DNA of 57,887 nucleotides, taken from NCBI GenBank assembly GCA_020725335.1, contig DYFF01000019.1, forward strand, positions 1-57,887, read 5' to 3'. The DNA comes from Thermodesulfovibrio sp. GTDB lineage: Bacteria; Nitrospirota; Thermodesulfovibrionia; Thermodesulfovibrionales; Thermodesulfovibrionaceae. How positions within the stretch are numbered: position 1 is the stretch's first letter; the number at the start of each line of letters is the position of its first letter. The translations under genes and the position numbers were made by a program. Shown in pieces: positions 29,298-38,582 of this stretch. Under the pieces are notes generated by a model, which was not told the origin of the DNA, did no database searches, and was given only the letters and a program-made list of their open reading frames with translations.

Positions 29298-31175
29298 CTA
29301 TATTATCATCAATTTATATCTCTCTATCAGAATGTCCTGAAGTTTTGATATAAGCTGAAAAGTGTCTTTTAATAATTTTTTCTCAAGATTACTTAAAGAT
29401 TCAGGATCAATAAAGTTATCTGGCATTTTTCCTTGGAGTATTTGTTCATACTGATGCCTTATTCTTAAAAGTGTTAGGAATTCAAAGGCATATATGATTT
29501 CATCTGCATAATCTTTTATAACTGTATGCTTATTTTTTAATATCTCTATTCTTTCTAAAGTTGAAGTTTCTTTAACTCCTTTTTCAAGACTAAATAATCT
29601 TATAATATCTATAATAGGAGCTATACCTTTTATCTTAAGGTTTAATTTATCTTTATGTTCTCCGCTTTTTTCTACGACGAAAGTTTTAAAAAATCCCAGA
29701 GGTGGTTTATTCCGAACAGCAAGATTAGCGAGATATCCAAGAAATACTTTCTGATCTTTAACTATTCCTAAAAGATAATCTCTTAGGTTTTCCTCAAGAG
29801 TGAGGTCACCATAAATACCTCTGAAGTCAAAAAATATATTTGACAGATTAATATTTTCTCCTTTAGGCATATAAATCCATTGTGAAAAATACTTTTTCCA
29901 TACTCTTATTGGCTGACACCACTTAGGATTACTTGCCATTATGTCACCAGGGCATGGAGGAAACCCACATTTTAGAAGGTTTTCTTTTACATAATTTGTA
30001 AATTCAATGAAGTATTTCTGAACTGCTTCTTGCTGTTCCTGAGGAGGATCAGCATAGATAAGAGCATTGTCTTGATCAGTCTTGAAAGTTTGCTCCTTTC
30101 TTCCTTCTGAGCCAAGCGCAATCCAACAATAGGGAACAGGTGGCTGTCCAAATTCTCTTTCAGCAAACTGTATAATTTTTCTAACTATTCTATCATTTAT
30201 TTCTGTTATGATTCTTGTAATATTGCTTGCTTTAGCACCCTGAGAAATTAGATTACCTACAATAGTGTTTACCTGTTTTGACGCATTAATTAGACCTTCA
30301 ACAGTCTGATGAATTTCTAAGTCTCTCACGATTGTAATAGGTGAAAATCCTTGAAGCATCATTATATCATGGTTTGTGATAATTCCATTAATTTTGCCGT
30401 TCTTTATTACTAAAAGGTGATGGATATTGTATTTAAGCATCCTTACTACAGCCTCAAAACAAAAATCTTTTGCATCTATTTTAATAATTGGATAGCTCAT
30501 TATGTTTTTAACTGGTTCATCAACATTTCTTGCTGAGGCAACGACTTTCTTTCGTAAGTCTTTGTCTGTAATTATTCCTAATGGAATTCCTTGATCATCT
30601 ATTACTATCAGAGAACTTATAGAATTTTCGCACATTATTTTTGCTGCATCTCTTATTGAGGTGGTTTCATTAACTGCAACAACATTTTTAGTTGCAATTT
30701 CCTCAACAGGTGTAGTAAAAAGAATTTTATCTACGGTATATGTGATAGCTTTTTTACTCTGATCATCCCTGTAACCCTTGTCTAAATAGATATTCATAAA
30801 AGATCTCAAGAAGAAATCTCTTACCTCTGGATATTTATTTATTAAAGTTGAAATGGTTTCTTTTGGTATAAGATAGCAAATGGTATCATCAATCGCTACT
30901 ATATTTGCTCTTGATTTATCACCGCTCATGAGTGAAACAAAGCCGAAACTATCCCCCTCACTTCGGTAGTCGATAATTATTTCTTCATTTTCAACTCTCC
31001 TGTAGACTTTAACTCCACCTTTTTTTATTACATAAAGAAATTCACTTGGTGGACCATCCTGAAGAAGAATATGAGTTCCTTTAGGATAATACTCCATAGA
31101 GGTTTTTACTGTTACAGAATTAATCACTTCATCGCTTAAAAATTCAAAGGGTGGTACTGCTTTGAGAAACTCCAT
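29298..31175 (-). CDS. cNMP-binding / twin CBS / DUF294 nucleotidyltransferase protein (copy 1)
   Basis: The ATG at 31175 gives 625 residues and starts exactly at the cNMP fold (MEFLKAVPPFEFLSDEVIN); an upstream ATG at 31262 would add 29 hydrophobic residues and is less likely. Order: cyclic-nucleotide-binding domain (1-125), two CBS domains (about 150-275), DUF294 nucleotidyltransferase core with ALGSEGRKEQTFKTDQDNAL (about 350-368; GS and D-x-D metal motif) and the DUF294 C-terminal helical domain. It resembles GlnD's nucleotidyltransferase part, so it could nucleotidylate a target in response to adenosine nucleotides. The target is unknown; the adjacent symporter is a candidate by context only. 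Confidence 0.87.
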   Translation of the reverse strand: MEFLKAVPPFEFLSDEVINSVTVKTSMEYYPKGTHILLQDGPPSEFLYVIKKGGVKVYRRVENEEIIIDYRSEGDSFGFVSLMSGDKSRANIVAIDDTICYLIPKETISTLINKYPEVRDFFLRSFMNIYLDKGYRDDQSKKAITYTVDKILFTTPVEEIATKNVVAVNETTSIRDAAKIMCENSISSLIVIDDQGIPLGIITDKDLRKKVVASARNVDEPVKNIMSYPIIKIDAKDFCFEAVVRMLKYNIHHLLVIKNGKINGIITNHDIMMLQGFSPITIVRDLEIHQTVEGLINASKQVNTIVGNLISQGAKASNITRIITEINDRIVRKIIQFAEREFGQPPVPYCWIALGSEGRKEQTFKTDQDNALIYADPPQEQQEAVQKYFIEFTNYVKENLLKCGFPPCPGDIMASNPKWCQPIRVWKKYFSQWIYMPKGENINLSNIFFDFRGIYGDLTLEENLRDYLLGIVKDQKVFLGYLANLAVRNKPPLGFFKTFVVEKSGEHKDKLNLKIKGIAPIIDIIRLFSLEKGVKETSTLERIEILKNKHTVIKDYADEIIYAFEFLTLLRIRHQYEQILQGKMPDNFIDPESLSNLEKKLLKDTFQLISKLQDILIERYKLMII

Positions 31176-31284
31176 TATGTCTTCAATAATTTTTACCACA
31201 AAATAAATAAATATATGCAATATATATGCCACTCTATTTATATGTGAATATTTAAGTATCATTATTACTGATTGGTTTAATCAT

Positions 31285-31299
31285 GTTACTAAAAGTAAC
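31285..31299. promoter_or_regulatory. Palindromic operator candidate GTTACTAAAAGTAAC
   Basis: GTTACT and AGTAAC arms flank AAA, a perfect inverted repeat in the 250-base stretch between two divergent genes. A further AGTAAC half-site lies at 31316-31321. A near-copy, GTTACAAAAAGTAAA, sits upstream of the paralogous module at 41862-41876, which suggests a common regulator. No regulator gene for it is recognised. Confidence 0.5.
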
Positions 31300-31425
31300 A
31301 AAAAATGTTTATTTTAGTAACTTTTCATCCTTAGCCTATATGTGTTTTTTTAAAGTTTTAAAATTTAACAGAAATTTAAAGAATATTTAACATTACTGTA
31401 ACATTATTTAGTTTAAATTTAAATA

Positions 31426-31707
31426 ATGGCAATTATAAAAAGTGAAAAAATTTTATGTCCTATGTGTAAATCAGATGCAGTTTATAAGTATGGCAAAACT
31501 AAAACTGGAAAGCAAAGGTATTTATGCATGTTATGTAACAAGCAATTTACATTAAATGGTAAACAAAATAGTCATGAGTATATCAGTTGTGAGTTGTGCG
31601 GGAATAAAATGTATGTATATATGAGAGATAATGATAAAAAGATTATAAGATTTAGATGTTCTAATTATCCAAAATGTAAAAATTATAAAATTAGGAGGCT
31701 AACATGA
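31426..31707 (+). CDS. Twin zinc-ribbon small protein
   Basis: 93 residues. The first half, CPMCKSDAVYKYGKTKTGKQ with CMLC (Cys11, 14, 34, 37), is the InsA/transposase-type zinc ribbon; the second half (Cys55, 58, 78, 84) looks like a topoisomerase-type ribbon with YPKC. There is no catalytic transposase part and no flanking inverted repeats, so it seems a domesticated DNA- or nucleic-acid-binding protein. It overlaps the HMA2 gene by four bases and faces the ATPase operon, so it may regulate that cluster. This is context-based inference. Confidence 0.72.
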   Translation: MAIIKSEKILCPMCKSDAVYKYGKTKTGKQRYLCMLCNKQFTLNGKQNSHEYISCELCGNKMYVYMRDNDKKIIRFRCSNYPKCKNYKIRRLT

Positions 31708-32075
31708 AATTTTATATTCATGATATCCCTGGTAGATTAAGAGTAAAAAGTCCTTTGCTTAAGAATAATCCAAATGCAGAGTTTGAGCTAAGAAAGGCAC
31801 TAAGTACATTAGAAGGACTCGGGGTTGTTGAGACTAACTTAATCACAGGAAGCATTCTTATACATTATAATGCGAAAAAGCTTAATAAGAATGATATATT
31901 AAGACTCTTAATAAATAGAGGTTACTTTGATCCATCAAAAGCTGTAACAAATGATGAATATATCAAGAAAACAGTTGAAAAGACTGGTAATTTTGTAGTA
32001 AAAAGTTTTGTTGGCACAGTTATTGACAGTAGCTTAGAGAACACACCTCTGAGATTTATAACGGCTATATTGTAA
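31704..32075 (+). CDS. HMA2-type domain small protein
   Basis: 123 residues. The N-terminal 70 residues fit the heavy-metal-associated-domain-2 pattern (IPGRLRVKSP and, later, ITGSILIHYN), an HMA-like fold without the CxxC metal ligands. A short C-terminal amphipathic/hydrophobic tail (about 90-115) may touch the membrane. The same two motifs recur in the ATPase N-terminus and in the protein at 35879-36337. It shares a transcript with the zinc-ribbon gene. Role unknown; an adaptor for the ATPase is a guess. Confidence 0.75.
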   Translation: MKFYIHDIPGRLRVKSPLLKNNPNAEFELRKALSTLEGLGVVETNLITGSILIHYNAKKLNKNDILRLLINRGYFDPSKAVTNDEYIKKTVEKTGNFVVKSFVGTVIDSSLENTPLRFITAIL

Positions 32076-32095
32076 AATCTAAATTTAACTTTTTT

Positions 32096-35000
32096 TTAAA
32101 TCTTAATCTTTTTTAAATTTTCATTTATAACTAATGAACCCGCTGTTGCAAGAGAAATCACACCATAATCAATCATTTTAAGTTGAGTAATTCCTAATAA
32201 ATTTCTTAGTCCAGGAATGAAAGATATGGCAATCTGCAAAAGTAATGTTCCACCTACTGCTAAATTTAAATATTTATTTGAAAAGGTATTAATTCGGAAA
32301 ACTGATTGCTTTTCTGATTTGCAACTGTAAGCATGAAGTATTTGTGATAGAGAAAGTGATAAGAAGGCAATACTACTTGAGGCTGGTGATATTCCATATC
32401 TTGAAATACCATAGAGATAGGCAGTCATAGTTGAAAGAGTTATTGCTGAAGCCTCTAAGAAATGTTTTTTTAACTGTTTCCTGTCAAGTAACTCTTCGTG
32501 AGGGTCTCTCGGTGGTTGTTTCATTAGCTCTTTGTCCAAAGGTTCGATTGATAGGGCTAAGCCGGGGAATATGTCAGATATAAGATTTATCCAGAGCAGT
32601 TGAATAGGAGTTAAGGGCTGACCAGCTCGTAATGCTATGCAGGAGAGCATTGTAAAAATTTCACTCAGATTTGTAGAAACAAGATAGTGGATGGACTTTC
32701 TAATGTTTACATAGGTATTTCTTCCATGGGCAATTGCATTTTCTAATTTGGTAATATCATCATCTTCTATTACTATTTCTGCTACATCTCTTGCAATTTC
32801 GGTTCCAGCTTTGCCCATAGAAATACCTAAATTAGCTACTTTTAAAGCAGGTCCGTCATTAATACCATCACCTGTCATAGCCACTTGTCTTCCCTTTGCC
32901 TGAAGTGCCTTTACTATTTTCAATTTATCTGTTGGTGTCGCTCTTGAAAATACATTAATGTTGTCTATGTCTGTCTGTCCATTTTCCATTTTTGATGTCT
33001 CTATTACATTTATAGAACCATCTTTGCTTAGACTTAATTCATTTGCAATAGCCTTAGCAGTTAAGGATTGATCTCCTGTAATCATGATTGTTTCTATACC
33101 AGCAAGGTGGAATCTTTTTATGAGCTCTTTAACTCCATCCCTAATTGGGTCTTTGAAACCTATTAAGCCAAGCCATACTATATCAATACTATCTATAATT
33201 TTATTGCAGTTACATTCTTCATTGTTTAGCTCGTTTATCAAATCTTTGTATCTTTTCTCAAGAATTCCATAGCAAAAACCTAATACTCGGAGTCCTTTAG
33301 AGGACATCAACTCATTTGCTTCTGAATACATAACTAATTCTCTCTCTGTAAAATGCTTTATATCACCGTTGTGCATTAATTGATTGGAGAACTCAAGGAG
33401 TTTATCGGGTGCGCCTTTTATGGCAACAAGATACTCTTCAGGATTTTCTGTTTCATGAATTGTTAGCATGAAATGTCTGTTTTCAGCTCTATAAAAAGTT
33501 TTTATCCTTTTGAACTTTTCTCTTAATTGTTCCGGATTATCTGATAGATAATTTGCGAGCTTTACCAAAGCATTCTCTGTAGGTGTACCAACTATATTAT
33601 ACCTCCCATTGTCAAAAGTTAGTTTGCTGTCATTGCATAGGATTGAAATTTTGAGAAGTTCTTTGATGGTTGGATTTTCTTCAATTTTAATAGGCGATTG
33701 AAACTCATAAAGTCCTTTCCCATCAGATTCAAATAGTTTAGTATCGGCAAAAACCTCTGAGACAGACATTTTGTTTAGGGTTAGTGTCCCTGTTTTATCA
33801 AAACAGACTGTGTTTATAGTGCCTAATGTCTCAACTGCCTTCAATTCTCTTATAAGTATTCCTTGCCTTCTTAAATTAGCCATTCCAAGGGCAAAAGTAG
33901 TTGTGGCAACAGTTGGTAAACCCTCTGGTACAGCAGCAACTGCTAAAGATATGGATGATTTCAACATTTCTAATAGTCCATATCCTCTAATAAGTCCTAT
34001 GATAAAGACAGCAGCACAGATTACGGCACTAATTATTGATAGTTTTATACCAAGACTGTCAAGTTGATTTTGAACAGTTGTTTTTGGTGTTTCGTGTTCT
34101 TCTATGAGAGATTTAATTTTACCAATCTCTGTTGCTTTACCTGTCGCAACAACAACTGCTTTTCCATGTCCTCCTACAACAAATGTACCTCTGTAAACCA
34201 TGTTACAACGGTCTGCGAGGGGGATTTGGTCACCATTGTTAAATATACATAGATTTACAAATTTAGTTACGGGAAGGCTTTCTCCAGTAAGCGCAGATTC
34301 ATCAACAGTTAGATTAATACTTTCAATTAGTCTACAGTCAGCATTTATGAAAGTACCTGGCTTAAGTAGGAGTATATCACCTGGTACTAATTCTTCAGAT
34401 TCTGTAATTTTTAATTCTCCATCTCTGAGCACTTCTGATTGATGTTCAAATATTTTATTGAGAGACTTAATGAGGCTCTCTGTCTTTCTCTCAGTTTTAT
34501 AACCAATAAAGGCATTAGTAATTATTACTCCGATTATAAAAACTGCATCTGTTATGCCTCCCGTTAAAATTGATATTAAGGAGGCAACACCAAGTAAAGC
34601 TACAGGAATTGATTTGAACTGATTTAATAAAAGAGAAAGCCCTGATTTGGTCTCTCCCTCATCAATTGAATTTGCTCCGTAATGTTTTAGCCTATTTTTT
34701 GCCTCTTCTGATGTAAGTCCGAAATTTTCATCAGTTTTTAGTTTCTTAACTATATCTCTCCAGTCAATAATATGCCAATCTTCATATTTCTGTTGTGATT
34801 TTAATTGTATTTTTTCCTTAATTTTTTGAATTATTTTATTGCTTAGTTTAGATTTTTTCACATCTTCAGTTTGATCTCTTTTACTTGATACAAAAATTTT
34901 TCTAAATTCTTCAGCTAAATTTTCTACAGTTTGAATTACCTCTACTAAAGGTTTTTCAGTATCATAATAAATCAATAAAGAACCCGTAGTAAGATTTATT

Positions 35001-35131
35001 GAAAAGTCAGATACGTAGGCTATTTTTTCAAGATGACTTGTTAAAAATTCTGCAAATTCATTGGAATTTTTTAAGCCTATAATTTTTAATCTGACTCTTC
35101 CAATTACTTCTTTATGAACGATTCTTACCAT
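32096..35131 (-). CDS. P2-type cation-transporting ATPase with N-terminal HMA2 domain
   Basis: 1011 residues. An HMA2-like domain (about 1-75; EVIGRVRLKI and TTGSLLIYY) precedes the cation ATPase N-domain (about 120-190), actuator, and catalytic core with DKTGTLT (phospho-Asp445) and GDGINDGPAL. Residues known to bind calcium in SERCA are kept: PEGLP in helix 4, NLSE in helix 5 and NLISD in helix 6. So it looks like a Ca2+ (or Mn2+) exporter, not a heavy-metal P1B pump, even though it carries an HMA-like domain. The HMA2 domain has no CxxC. It is the last gene of the run from 36628, six bases after the 22-mer repeat gene. Confidence 0.9.
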   Translation of the reverse strand: MVRIVHKEVIGRVRLKIIGLKNSNEFAEFLTSHLEKIAYVSDFSINLTTGSLLIYYDTEKPLVEVIQTVENLAEEFRKIFVSSKRDQTEDVKKSKLSNKIIQKIKEKIQLKSQQKYEDWHIIDWRDIVKKLKTDENFGLTSEEAKNRLKHYGANSIDEGETKSGLSLLLNQFKSIPVALLGVASLISILTGGITDAVFIIGVIITNAFIGYKTERKTESLIKSLNKIFEHQSEVLRDGELKITESEELVPGDILLLKPGTFINADCRLIESINLTVDESALTGESLPVTKFVNLCIFNNGDQIPLADRCNMVYRGTFVVGGHGKAVVVATGKATEIGKIKSLIEEHETPKTTVQNQLDSLGIKLSIISAVICAAVFIIGLIRGYGLLEMLKSSISLAVAAVPEGLPTVATTTFALGMANLRRQGILIRELKAVETLGTINTVCFDKTGTLTLNKMSVSEVFADTKLFESDGKGLYEFQSPIKIEENPTIKELLKISILCNDSKLTFDNGRYNIVGTPTENALVKLANYLSDNPEQLREKFKRIKTFYRAENRHFMLTIHETENPEEYLVAIKGAPDKLLEFSNQLMHNGDIKHFTERELVMYSEANELMSSKGLRVLGFCYGILEKRYKDLINELNNEECNCNKIIDSIDIVWLGLIGFKDPIRDGVKELIKRFHLAGIETIMITGDQSLTAKAIANELSLSKDGSINVIETSKMENGQTDIDNINVFSRATPTDKLKIVKALQAKGRQVAMTGDGINDGPALKVANLGISMGKAGTEIARDVAEIVIEDDDITKLENAIAHGRNTYVNIRKSIHYLVSTNLSEIFTMLSCIALRAGQPLTPIQLLWINLISDIFPGLALSIEPLDKELMKQPPRDPHEELLDRKQLKKHFLEASAITLSTMTAYLYGISRYGISPASSSIAFLSLSLSQILHAYSCKSEKQSVFRINTFSNKYLNLAVGGTLLLQIAISFIPGLRNLLGITQLKMIDYGVISLATAGSLVINENLKKIKI

Positions 35132-35137
35132 TTAAGA

Positions 35138-35857
35138 TTATTCGGCTTTTCTTTTTCTTTTATCTTTGCTTTCCTCAATAGTTTCAGAGATTTCTGTTGA
35201 AATAGTATTAGTGTTACAAGCTGTCTGTTCAGAAGATATCCTTCTTGTTAATTCTGGAGTTTTACTCGTAGGTAGTATGGCACCAATTACTTCTTTTATT
35301 CCTCCGATTGTTATTAGAAGAATATCTTTCACAGAATTCAATGCTACATTTCCTATTGCATAGGCAGTCTCAATAGCTCTTATAGAGGTTGCTTTAACTA
35401 CTTCTTCCACATTTCCGCCTATTTCAGAAGTTGCCTCAACAACTCCTTCAATTGTTTTCTTTGCAACCATAGCTACATCTCCTCCAACGGAAGAAGCACT
35501 GCTTATAGCTGTTTTAACTGTTTGTGCAGCAGCAGACACTACATCGCCACCTACTTCAGCGACACCCAAGATTATTCCCTTAGCCACATTTTTTGATGTC
35601 ATTACAAGCCCTGTTCCCATTTCTTCCGTTGCTTTCATAGCTTCTTTAGTGACTTCCCGAACTACTAATAGGGTATCAGTAGCAAGTGCCCCGGAAGTTT
35701 TAAGAGTAGTTGATACGGTATTTTTGACTAAATTTACTATTTCATTTTCAATCTCATTTACTCCTTTAAGTCCGCTAACTATACCATTCTTTATTGATGC
35801 ACCCATTGAACTAAAATCAACCTGTGACCTTTCAACATTAATTGTTTCATTTGACAT
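35138..35857 (-). CDS. Protein of seven tandem 22-residue amphipathic repeats
   Basis: 239 residues; I do not recognise a named family. From residue 37 to 190 it is made of seven back-to-back 22-residue units without a gap. The consensus opens GGDV, has a small-residue and Lys/Thr middle (TVKxAI) and ends xxEV/xxEI; units 4-6 are clearest (starting at 103, 125, 147). Such 22-mers resemble apolipoprotein-type or phasin-like amphipathic helices that lie on membranes. The C-terminus (191-239) is polar with Lys/Arg. Good AAAGGAGG ribosome site. Placed between an HMA2-membrane protein and the P-type ATPase, it may scaffold the pump on the membrane. That is inference. Confidence 0.8.
   Translation of the reverse strand: MSNETINVERSQVDFSSMGASIKNGIVSGLKGVNEIENEIVNLVKNTVSTTLKTSGALATDTLLVVREVTKEAMKATEEMGTGLVMTSKNVAKGIILGVAEVGGDVVSAAAQTVKTAISSASSVGGDVAMVAKKTIEGVVEATSEIGGNVEEVVKATSIRAIETAYAIGNVALNSVKDILLITIGGIKEVIGAILPTSKTPELTRRISSEQTACNTNTISTEISETIEESKDKRKRKAE
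35288..35749 (-). repeat. Seven tandem 66-base (22-codon) coding repeats
   Basis: Units at protein positions 37-58, 59-80, 81-102, 103-124, 125-146, 147-168 and 169-190 of the gene at 35138-35857. The pattern is clear in protein; the DNA copies have diverged, so this is an old duplication kept by selection on helix register. Confidence 0.75.
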
Positions 35858-35878
35858 TTTAAACCTCCTTTTTTAAAT

Positions 35879-36337
35879 TTAATCTTTTGATATAAGAGAG
35901 TTTAAATAGAAGAGGGCTGTATACCAAGGAATAGCAGATAAATTTCCTCTTGCTATTTGGTATATTGCACTGATAATGAGGAATAAAAGTATAGTGCTTT
36001 TTAAATCTAATACTTCTGATGATAACTTTCTTATGACTCTATTTAAGTAACCGATGTTTTTATTTACTGAATTAATTATTCTTTTTTTAGGTATTTCTTC
36101 ACTCTTCTTAATTTGAAATAAATTTAAATTTTTTAACAAATTAATTATCTCTTCCGCTGAATTATTAAATTCCAATATCATGCTTCCTGTAGTAGGATTT
36201 GTTCTTATGTTTATAAATGCTCCAGTATTTTTAAGATTATCCGATAAAAAATTAAGAAGGTCCGTATTCCCTTTTGAATTAAGGAATTTAATCCTTATTC
36301 TACCGTAGGAAATATGAGCAATATACCCCTCTATCAC
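35879..36337 (-). CDS. HMA2-domain membrane protein
   Basis: 152 residues from a GTG start at 36337. The HMA2-like fold (about 1-72) shows YGRIRIKFL and TTGSMILEF, and lacks CxxC. A basic linker follows, then two closely spaced membrane segments (about 112-128 and 134-150). It is directly adjacent to the DUF5132 gene (no bases between) and 21 bases before the repeat-protein gene, so all are co-transcribed. The HMA2 domain could contact the same domain of the ATPase. Function unknown. Confidence 0.75.
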   Translation of the reverse strand: MIEGYIAHISYGRIRIKFLNSKGNTDLLNFLSDNLKNTGAFINIRTNPTTGSMILEFNNSAEEIINLLKNLNLFQIKKSEEIPKKRIINSVNKNIGYLNRVIRKLSSEVLDLKSTILLFLIISAIYQIARGNLSAIPWYTALFYLNSLISKD

Positions 36338-36628
36338 TTAACCTTTATCCTCTTGATTCATTAAATTTGATGATATTTCCTCCATTTTTTCTTGAGCTAT
36401 TTCTGATTTTACTTCTGCTACAATGTCTTCCACTACTTCTCCCACTTCAGCAACTATTTCTTTACCCTTTTCATAGGCGCTAAGTCCTCCTTTAATGGCT
36501 GCTTTTGCAATTGGTTTAGCAATAGAAGCTAACATAGGAATAACTACTGGCGCTAAAACAGATGCTCCTATGCCGATAGCAAGACCTGTGAGTATATTTC
36601 CTTTAAACCCATTATTAAATAGTCCCAT
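36338..36628 (-). CDS. DUF5132-type small membrane protein
   Basis: 96 residues from the ATG at 36628, chosen because the TTAGGAGGTGA ribosome site is just upstream (an ATG at 36664 is less likely). The Gly/Ala/Pro-rich hydrophobic stretch GNILTGLAIGIGASVLAP and the following PIAKAAIKGG are the signature of DUF5132. The C-terminus is a Glu/Lys-rich helix. DUF5132 proteins are often found beside HMA2 proteins and P-type ATPases. They recall the mycobacterial PacL proteins, which gather P-type ATPases into membrane platforms, although sequence homology is not evident. First gene after the 112-base gap below the DUF294 gene. Confidence 0.8.
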   Translation of the reverse strand: MGLFNNGFKGNILTGLAIGIGASVLAPVVIPMLASIAKPIAKAAIKGGLSAYEKGKEIVAEVGEVVEDIVAEVKSEIAQEKMEEISSNLMNQEDKG

Positions 36629-36722
36629 AAAATCACCTCCTAAATAATACTTAAATTTAGACAAAAATCCTTATCTAATTTTCACAAAATTTATTAAAGA
36701 TATCAATAGGATTTTTAATTAC

Positions 36723-36749
36723 TTTTCCTAAGGATATTAATTAGGAAAA
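36723..36749 (-). repeat. Inverted repeat at the DUF294 stop, before the DUF5132 gene
   Basis: TTTTCCTAA (36723-36731) and TTAGGAAAA (36741-36749) form a perfect 9-base-pair stem with a nine-base loop, overlapping the DUF294 stop codon. There is no following T-run on the minus strand, so it is not a standard terminator. It may slow, attenuate or process the mRNA between the symporter half and the ATPase half of the run. Confidence 0.5.
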
Positions 36750-38582
36750 ATATCTTAAATTGTATTTGTCAAAAAGAAGTTTTTGAAATTCTTCTATTTT
36801 TTTGAAAATATCTCGAAGTATTTCTCTTTCTGTTTTAGACAAATCTTTTGGATTTATATAGTTGTCTGGGGGAATGTTGTTTCTTATTTTTTTAGCTTGT
36901 GACTTAAGTCTTAAAGTCATAAGAAATCTGTAACTTTCTTCTAAATCTCTTGCAAAATCAGATGTGAAAATAGATATGTTTCTGAGGTTTCTAATTCTTT
37001 CAAAGGTGTTTGTATTTCTTATTTCATTATGAAGGGATAAAACCCTTATACCCTGTGTAATAGGGAAAATTCCATATTTTTTAATATCAATTTCCCCTTT
37101 ATGTTCCCCTTCCTTTTCAGTTTGGAATTTCCCAAGAAAACCAATAGGGGGTCTAAATTTTATGGCTTCTGACGCAAGGAAGGGTAGGAAATGTTTAGAT
37201 GTTTTAATCTTATTAAAGATAAACTGCCATAATTCCTCTGTTAGTTCTTCTTTACCAAAAACATTTCTGAAATCAAAAAAGATACTGATATTTAATACAT
37301 TTTCAGGTTTTGGATTTTCCATCCATCTGGTGATTTCCTTGAACCATTCATCTTTTGTTCTTCTCCAGTATGGGTTACTAATCATGACATTCCCTAAACA
37401 AGGTGGAAAACCAATATTAAGTAGATAATCAATATATCTTGTTGAGAACTTTTCGAAATATTCTTTATTATTAGAGTTGTTTTCGAAAATTAAAGCATTG
37501 TCTTGATCTGTTTTAAGGCTTTGTTCTCTTCTGCCTTCTGAACCAATGACCATAATTGCATATTCACAAGAGGGCAAACCACATTCTTCCTCTACCATTT
37601 GAGCAATCTTTATCATAAAACGATCATTAAGCTCAGCAATATATTTACCTACATATTCAGGGTCTAAACCAGACATCACTCCTTCAATAACGCTCTCATT
37701 AACAAGACTATAAATATAGGAAAGTTCCTCTACGTTTTTTGCTCTATCAATTTCTTTGATGAGAAATAGTATGTTTTTGCTTTCATGTGAGATAACGACT
37801 CTGTCATCAAGAATACCCCAAATGGCACCATTTTCCTTTATTACCAATTTTCTTATACCGTGTTTAGCCATAACTAAAAGAGCATTAAATAGAGGCTCTG
37901 AAGCATCCATGGTTATTATTGGAAAAGTTGCTATGTCTTTTGCTTGAATTTTAAATGGATCAAGTTCTTTTGCAAGGACTTTTTTTATTATATCTCTTTC
38001 GGTAATGATTCCAATATCTCCACCTTTTTGTACAAGGCAGAAGGTTGAGTCATTCTCAGCCATTGTTTTAGATGTATCTGTTATATTTAAGTCGCCTCTT
38101 ATTAAAATAGGTTCTTTAATTTTAATATCCCTTATTCTAACATCTAAAAGTCTTTCCATCTGGAAGGAACTTGTTAGTTTCGGTATTCTATGAACTCTTT
38201 TAGCCAGTTCTTTTGTAAAAAATTTAGCAAAATCGTCGTATTGATGAAGTAAATATTTAAATTTTTCTTTTTTTATTTGTATGATTTGTGTATCCTCTTC
38301 AACTATTCTTGCAGTAGATGCTGGAGGCAAGTCGCTCATCAAAGATACATATCCGAATATATCACCCCTTTTTAGATGAGCAATTAGTTGTGAATTTCTC
38401 TCAAGAAAAACTTCACCATTTAATATGATATACAGAAAATTTAATGGTTCACTGTTTTCTCTAAAAAGTATTTCTCCTTTTTTTAAAATTTTTAAGTCTG
38501 AGGTTGACACAATATCATTAATCTCTTTTTCAGGAAGATTATCGAAGGGATAAGTTTGTTTTATTATCTCTTTTATTTCCAT
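36741..38582 (-). CDS. cNMP-binding / twin CBS / DUF294 nucleotidyltransferase protein (copy 2)
   Basis: 613 residues with the same order as the protein at 29298-31175: cNMP-binding fold (1-125), CBS pair (about 150-270), nucleotidyltransferase core with IGSEGRREQSLKTDQDNAL (about 343-360) and a C-terminal DUF294 helical domain. The metal-binding Asp pair and the GS are kept. It follows the YggT-like gene by three bases and closes the symporter half of the run. The two copies are similar in plan but clearly diverged, so the duplication is not recent. Likely a nucleotide-responsive regulator of the transport module. Confidence 0.87.
   Translation of the reverse strand: MEIKEIIKQTYPFDNLPEKEINDIVSTSDLKILKKGEILFRENSEPLNFLYIILNGEVFLERNSQLIAHLKRGDIFGYVSLMSDLPPASTARIVEEDTQIIQIKKEKFKYLLHQYDDFAKFFTKELAKRVHRIPKLTSSFQMERLLDVRIRDIKIKEPILIRGDLNITDTSKTMAENDSTFCLVQKGGDIGIITERDIIKKVLAKELDPFKIQAKDIATFPIITMDASEPLFNALLVMAKHGIRKLVIKENGAIWGILDDRVVISHESKNILFLIKEIDRAKNVEELSYIYSLVNESVIEGVMSGLDPEYVGKYIAELNDRFMIKIAQMVEEECGLPSCEYAIMVIGSEGRREQSLKTDQDNALIFENNSNNKEYFEKFSTRYIDYLLNIGFPPCLGNVMISNPYWRRTKDEWFKEITRWMENPKPENVLNISIFFDFRNVFGKEELTEELWQFIFNKIKTSKHFLPFLASEAIKFRPPIGFLGKFQTEKEGEHKGEIDIKKYGIFPITQGIRVLSLHNEIRNTNTFERIRNLRNISIFTSDFARDLEESYRFLMTLRLKSQAKKIRNNIPPDNYINPKDLSKTEREILRDIFKKIEEFQKLLFDKYNLRYFS

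Follow-up and report, generated by a model that had tools for sequence, protein, structure and literature searches.

The window analysed here is a stretch of 57,887 nucleotides from Thermodesulfovibrio sp. (contig DYFF01000019.1). Its minus strand carries, from 36628 down to 32096, a run of four genes encoding a DUF5132 protein, an HMA_2 protein with two C-terminal membrane helices (HMA_2-TM), a protein with a 22-residue repeat (the 22-mer protein) and a cation ATPase headed by an HMA_2 domain. We put at about one half the probability that this gene set specifies a Ca2+ pump whose partner proteins arrange it within a scaffolded membrane domain or compartment. Bacteria hold cytosolic Ca2+ low, and to our knowledge little is known of how bacterial calcium pumps are placed and organised. 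The gene association appears to be undescribed in the open-access literature, and its function has apparently never been tested. Common to distant phyla, the set ties a calcium-type pump to defined small membrane proteins and to a repeat protein without a solved sequence relative, and it supplies named sequences for asking whether bacteria build calcium-pump domains or compartments.

Conservation and linkage of the gene set

The four genes are separated by 0, 21 and 6 bases. A first-pass annotation of this DNA had described the run, and its coordinates, gaps and Pfam names all agree with those found here. The DUF5132 protein (96 amino acids, 36338-36628; Pfam PF17195, 4.6e-13, above the cut-off) is followed by HMA_2-TM (152 amino acids, 35879-36337, GTG start; Pfam PF19991, 2.1e-14). 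Next come the 22-mer protein (239 amino acids, 35138-35857), which was characterised by its identity at a lag of 22 residues, an AlphaFold2 model and a 24-row alignment, and the ATPase (1011 amino acids, 32096-35131), which was assigned to the P2A (SERCA/PMR1-type) class from Pfam, NCBIfam and alignments to human SPCA1 and Listeria LMCA1. Pfam values for HMA_2 were 2.1e-14 and 7.6e-10, and those for the P-type ATPase domains went down to 1e-53. All three HMA_2 matches of this genome, its single DUF5132 gene and its single 22-mer gene are at this locus. The two other ATPases of the genome are of other kinds, one having an HMA head with CxxC and a CPC motif, and one having no HMA_2 head. By comparison with Thermodesulfovibrio sp. 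SKW4, the four genes and the two beside them described below are all under purifying selection, with ratios of nonsynonymous to synonymous substitution rates (dN/dS) of 0.05-0.24; the values for DUF5132 and the ATPase are 0.05 and 0.08 respectively.

Co-occurrence across genomes had been set beforehand as the test on which the idea of a functional set could fail, and the idea survived it: the ATPase and DUF5132 were present together in 19 of 101 relatives. HMA_2-type ATPases were called at a clear step in the scores, at 686 bits or above, the next matches scoring 583 and lower. On this definition the ATPase was present in 21 relatives, DUF5132 in 20 and the 22-mer protein in 18. Two relatives had the ATPase without DUF5132, one had DUF5132 without the ATPase and 79 had neither (Fisher p ~1e-17, uncorrected for shared ancestry). 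The corresponding numbers for the ATPase and the 22-mer protein were 16 with both, five with the ATPase alone, two with the 22-mer protein alone and 78 with neither (Fisher p ~1e-12, likewise uncorrected). The presence of the set was patchy inside families and genera.

When 85,000 genomes were scanned with no other query than the 22-mer protein, 74 loci were found. By their record titles these span Nitrospirota, delta-, gamma- and alphaproteobacteria, Planctomycetes and Methylomirabilis, and Brocadia and Loosdrechtia are among the carriers. Linkage was counted only at loci with enough sequence room for the neighbour in question. The P2A ATPase was encoded directly downstream of the 22-mer gene in 58 of 67 such loci, and upstream of it HMA_2-TM was found in 56 of 67 and DUF5132 in 53 of 62. 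At two loci (L193 and L194) the order and strand of the genes were altered and the set was retained. Three genomes in which the 22-mer gene lacked a neighbouring pump carried an HMA_2-type ATPase gene followed by MetK elsewhere, and the notion that 22-mer genes without an adjoining ATPase indicate a different pump was therefore abandoned. The complete set also occurs in Desulfuromonas sp. CSMB_57 (L192), whose record is not labelled as a metagenome-assembled genome.

Other arrangements were also recorded. In a Chromatiales metagenome-assembled genome (L188:9137-17257), genes for DUF5132, HMA_2-TM, the 22-mer protein and a free HMA_2 protein lie upstream of apparent Fe3+ ABC transporter genes, and the ATPase is encoded elsewhere in the genome. 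The Nitrospiraceae metagenome-assembled genome UBA9159 has three 22-mer genes (L155, L180 and L190), none of which has an HMA_2-type pump in its vicinity; one of the three immediately precedes genes for a phosphate transporter. Candidatus Manganitrophus sp. GAC4, of a manganese-oxidiser lineage, has the whole set (L163), with the ATPase frame apparently in pieces through decay or sequencing error. A second kind of cluster, at L090, L091, L092 and L095 (genomes G040, G049, G058 and G239), encodes an HMA_2-headed P1B-like ATPase with DYGTG or DFGTG instead of CPC as its membrane motif, and also holds paired DUF5132 genes and two adjacent CAX-type Ca2+ exchangers.

The ATPase and its probable cargo

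On its sequence, the pump is a P2A ATPase in which site II of SERCA is fully represented and site I for the most part. It contains the P2-type domains PF00690, PF00122, PF13246 and PF00689, preceded by an HMA_2 domain at residues 6-112. The DKTGT motif (residues 445-449) is kept in all 66 aligned cluster pumps, and the GRxR signature of HMA_2 (G11, R12 and R14) is likewise invariant in the 66. The nearest profile was the PMR1/SPCA subtype TIGR01522, which the pump matches below the equivalog cut-off (618.5 against 798.3 bits); a heavy-metal ATPase profile scored 247 bits, against 618 for the P2A profile. The best sequence matches in the PDB were SPCA1 and LMCA1.

Ion ligands were placed at E403, N821, E824, N849 and D853. 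SERCA positions were assigned in the 66-sequence alignment by motif and established knowledge of SERCA. At site II, E403 corresponds to E309 (conserved in 65 of 66), N849 to N796 and D853 to D800 (each in 66 of 66). At site I, N821 and E824 correspond to N768 and E771 in all 66; 65 pumps have Ser or Thr at the position of T799, and 65 have Gln at that of E908. The earlier statement that SERCA-type calcium ligands are kept thus stands for the equivalents of E309, N768, E771, N796 and D800, and fails at Glu908.

In yeast PMR1, loss of Q783 abolishes Mn2+ transport (PMC5143377). All 66 cluster pumps have Leu, Ile or Phe at the equivalent position, so Mn2+ is the less likely ion. Because the five SERCA ligands are kept, E908 is Gln and the PMR1 Q783 position is changed, Ca2+ appears to be the likeliest cargo. 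The first-pass annotation had proposed Ca2+ or Mn2+; its Ca2+-type ligands were confirmed, and its second ion lost ground.

None of the 66 cluster ATPases has CxxC within the first 130 residues, and the classical HMA metallochaperone CxxC site was found in neither of the window proteins P0003 and P0005, in keeping with the earlier remark that the HMA2 domains lack this motif. The head of the pump and two of its partner proteins have the HMA_2 domain in common, with the basic GRxR residues retained and without cysteines for metal binding. CoBaHMA domains are HMA variants with conserved basic residues, and occur in calcyanin and as ATPase heads. An HMA_2 domain without cysteines, with a conserved GRxR and, in the model described below, an extra N-terminal strand, agrees with the description of these domains.

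Partner proteins and genomic surroundings

The 22-residue periodicity of the repeat protein was evident from its lag-22 identity of 0.246, against a shuffle mean of 0.090, a value reached by none of 2000 shuffles. AlphaFold2 predicted helices at residues 60-78, 83-102, 106-124, 128-146 and 150-194, the repeat core having mostly a predicted local distance difference test score (pLDDT) above 85. The helices are interrupted about every 22 residues at conserved VGGD/IGGN glycine turns, and the protein ends in a charged, disordered tail. The sequence has strong helical amphipathicity, and 29 columns are invariant in the 24-row alignment across phyla. From the model, either a stacked helical repeat or a chain of amphipathic helices lying on the membrane is possible. 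No solved structure related by sequence to the 22-mer protein was found. The model resembles designed helical-repeat proteins (VIA Z 13.8 over 146 residues, root-mean-square deviation 3.9, 16% identity), with figures in the range that unrelated helical repeats also reach. The 22-mer gene had no match among 72,556 plasmids, a search in which the low-complexity filter might conceal some.

By hydropathy, the DUF5132 protein has a single hydrophobic stretch, rich in Gly and Ala, at residues 12-30, and after it an amphipathic helix rich in Glu, Ala and Lys; no open-access paper naming DUF5132 was found. The AlphaFold2 model of HMA_2-TM (mean pLDDT 85.5) shows a ferredoxin-like domain, extended by one additional strand at its N terminus, and helices at 83-105, 112-130 and 133-151, two of the three being hydrophobic. 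H8, R13 and R15 are invariant in 24 sequences. A search for solved relatives of HMA_2-TM by sequence gave one chance-level match only (E 0.62).

A docking and scaffold mechanism for the HMA_2, DUF5132 and 22-mer proteins, as the first-pass annotation proposed, is plausible. An ATP-driven P2A Ca2+ pump and its partner proteins would act as one system in a specialised membrane patch or membrane fold. The basic HMA_2 faces bearing GRxR may tether the pump and the small proteins to one another or to acidic lipids, DUF5132 and HMA_2-TM would be embedded in the membrane, and the 22-mer protein could serve as the scaffold, by lining the membrane or by forming a helical array. The patch might be situated at the cell surface, for efflux, or on an internal compartment, for storage.

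Downstream of the set, a second, divergent MetK is encoded in 45 of 53 loci with room (for example L057:7802-9010), and its gene often shares a few bases with that of the ATPase. It is an extra copy besides the housekeeping metK in nearly every set-bearing genome. The genome of the window has one MetK only and no set-linked paralogue; we therefore consider the paralogue an optional enzyme of a wider system, not essential to the set. The paralogue retains its catalytic residues: all 58 of its sequences have H14, the catalytic histidine, as well as D16, K245, K265 and D271, and nearly all have K165 and R244. Four positions of the methionine site (Q98, D118, D238 and K269) are mostly or wholly substituted: Q98 is mostly Leu, Ser or Met (48 of 58), K269 is Arg in all 58 and D238 is His in all 58. 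In MetK, Gln98 and Lys269 hold the methionine carboxylate, and Asp238 contacts ribose and methionine (PMC3853416). The paralogue is thus likely to have an altered acceptor (methionine) site and, given that change, may represent a new enzyme activity. Of the 37 loci that extend far enough upstream, 12, chiefly from Nitrospirota, have Pst-PhoU genes next to the set at its DUF5132 end, and CorA or CDF genes follow the set in some loci. These neighbours point to divalent-cation and phosphate handling, though they are lineage-bound.

Two further genes lie beyond the ATPase on the plus strand. They encode a zinc-ribbon protein (93 amino acids, 31426-31707; an InsA/IS1595-type ribbon, with no transposase; 55.8 bits against NCBIfam NF050000, cut-off 28) and a free HMA_2 protein (123 amino acids, 31704-32075; Pfam PF19991, 3.6e-13). 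The two genes overlap by 4 bases and point towards the operon, tail to tail with it at a distance of 20 bases. The pair had been noted earlier as divergent; both genes are present, and their orientation is convergent. The free HMA_2 gene accompanies the set in most relatives, with matches in 52 of the 74 loci; the zinc-ribbon protein occurs in 25. The zinc-ribbon gene accompanies the free HMA_2 gene in many genomes, and its product is perhaps the regulator of that gene.

The whole group occupies 31263-36740 and is flanked on either side by a DUF294-type signalling gene. Five sister Thermodesulfovibrio genomes have the orthologues of these flanking genes about 125 bases apart, an empty site; in the window the distance is 5.5 kb. 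Two other genomes (G003 and G004) have the set at the same site, the copy in G004 being without the ATPase and the 22-mer gene. The set thus sits as an inserted cassette in Thermodesulfovibrio, and the pattern of empty sites fits gain or loss alike. Each of the two flanks (29298-31262 and 36741-38582) holds a DUF294/CBS/cyclic-nucleotide-binding gene, which forms a module together with a gene for an acetate-type symporter.

Alternative readings and known systems

Several points weigh against a scaffolded Ca2+ pump. Conservation of ligands is predictive and does not prove that Ca2+ is transported. The 22-mer sequence fits a helical-repeat fold as well as an amphipathic membrane coat. Five sequenced relatives of one family (G017, G049, G058, G076 and G098, family f3) retain the ATPase, HMA_2-TM and DUF5132 but have no 22-mer protein, which is therefore not indispensable. 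Two others (G059 and G078) have 22-mer matches without an HMA_2-type ATPase match.

An ordinary surface Ca2+ efflux pump with loosely associated partner genes, in which HMA_2 and the small membrane proteins merely regulate or stabilise the pump, is conceivable, if rather unlikely. The ATPase core is that of a normal P2A pump, with SPCA1 and LMCA1 as its nearest solved relatives, and small membrane partners are known to stabilise P-type ATPases, as PacL1 does (PMC9374683). Against this, the partners are conserved and linked to a degree that does not suit loose accessories: the 22-mer protein has 29 invariant columns and the dN/dS of DUF5132 is 0.05.

A second alternative, which we think improbable, is an internal compartment in which Ca2+ is stored together with phosphate or carbonate, as a bacterial counterpart of the acidocalcisome or a ferrosome analogue for calcium. 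The pump would fill it, the 22-mer and HMA_2 proteins would shape its membrane, and Pst-PhoU and the MetK paralogue would feed or process phosphate. The adjoining Pst-PhoU genes would fit such a store, as would the residues retained by the MetK paralogue, which we take to be those binding ATP and triphosphate. In having many parts, several HMA_2 proteins among them, the set resembles the plan of organelle clusters. Two uncultured Thermodesulfovibrionales strains, MYR-2 and YQR-1, make intracellular carbonate (PMC12710302). Against this, neither Pst-PhoU nor MetK adjoins the set in the window or in G003, and the set contains no organelle protein of known function. The fullest form of the proposal is a shade more doubtful still: a new calcium-storage compartment in which the 22-mer protein, DUF5132 and HMA_2 would shape the membrane, the ATPase would load Ca2+ and the MetK paralogue, having ceased to be a methionine enzyme, would handle phosphate.

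Transport of Mn2+ or another transition metal is the least credible reading: PMR1-type P2A pumps do carry both ions, Candidatus Manganitrophus is a carrier and CDF-family genes lie nearby in some loci, but the Q783 position is altered throughout, the Manganitrophus ATPase frame is in pieces, and an Rfam scan found only one tRNA in the window and no match in the loci of 12 relatives, giving no sign of riboswitch control by Mn2+ or otherwise.

The preferred reading, a Ca2+ pump organised by its partners, can be set beside known systems. Ferrosome fez clusters likewise combine the gene for a P-type ATPase with those of several small membrane proteins. FezB, the ATPase of these clusters, is of the P1B-6 class, and a ferrosome reading was rejected because the pump here is P2A (618 bits). 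FezC is a DUF4405-like cytochrome (PMC10979944), and DUF4405 had no match among the set proteins of the window, the only part of the genome searched for it.

The PacL/Ctp platforms of mycobacteria, in which DUF1490 proteins accompany P1B ATPases (PMC9374683, PMC13043812), had been invoked as a parallel by the first-pass annotation. The general plan agrees: DUF5132 has a transmembrane segment and then a Glu/Ala-rich helix, like PacL1 (PMC9374683), and its gene lies beside that of a P-type ATPase. Homology was rejected, since the set proteins gave no DUF1490 match at E up to 1. Also, no C-terminal His/Asp/Cys motif for metal binding was seen in the DUF5132 protein, the pump is P2A whereas that of PacL is P1B, and HMA_2 and 22-mer partners are not described for PacL systems. 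The comparison is thus one of analogy.

A further comparison is with SERCA, PMR1, SPCA and LMCA1, with which the cluster pump shares the P2A catalytic domains and the residues of site II. LMCA1 has a single ion site, with Arg795 in the place of site I (PMC11977196); in this region the cluster pump carries Gln at E908. It has Glu at the E771 position, which SPCA1 and LMCA1 do not, and it differs from SERCA, SPCA1 and LMCA1 in its N-terminal HMA_2 domain of about 110 residues.

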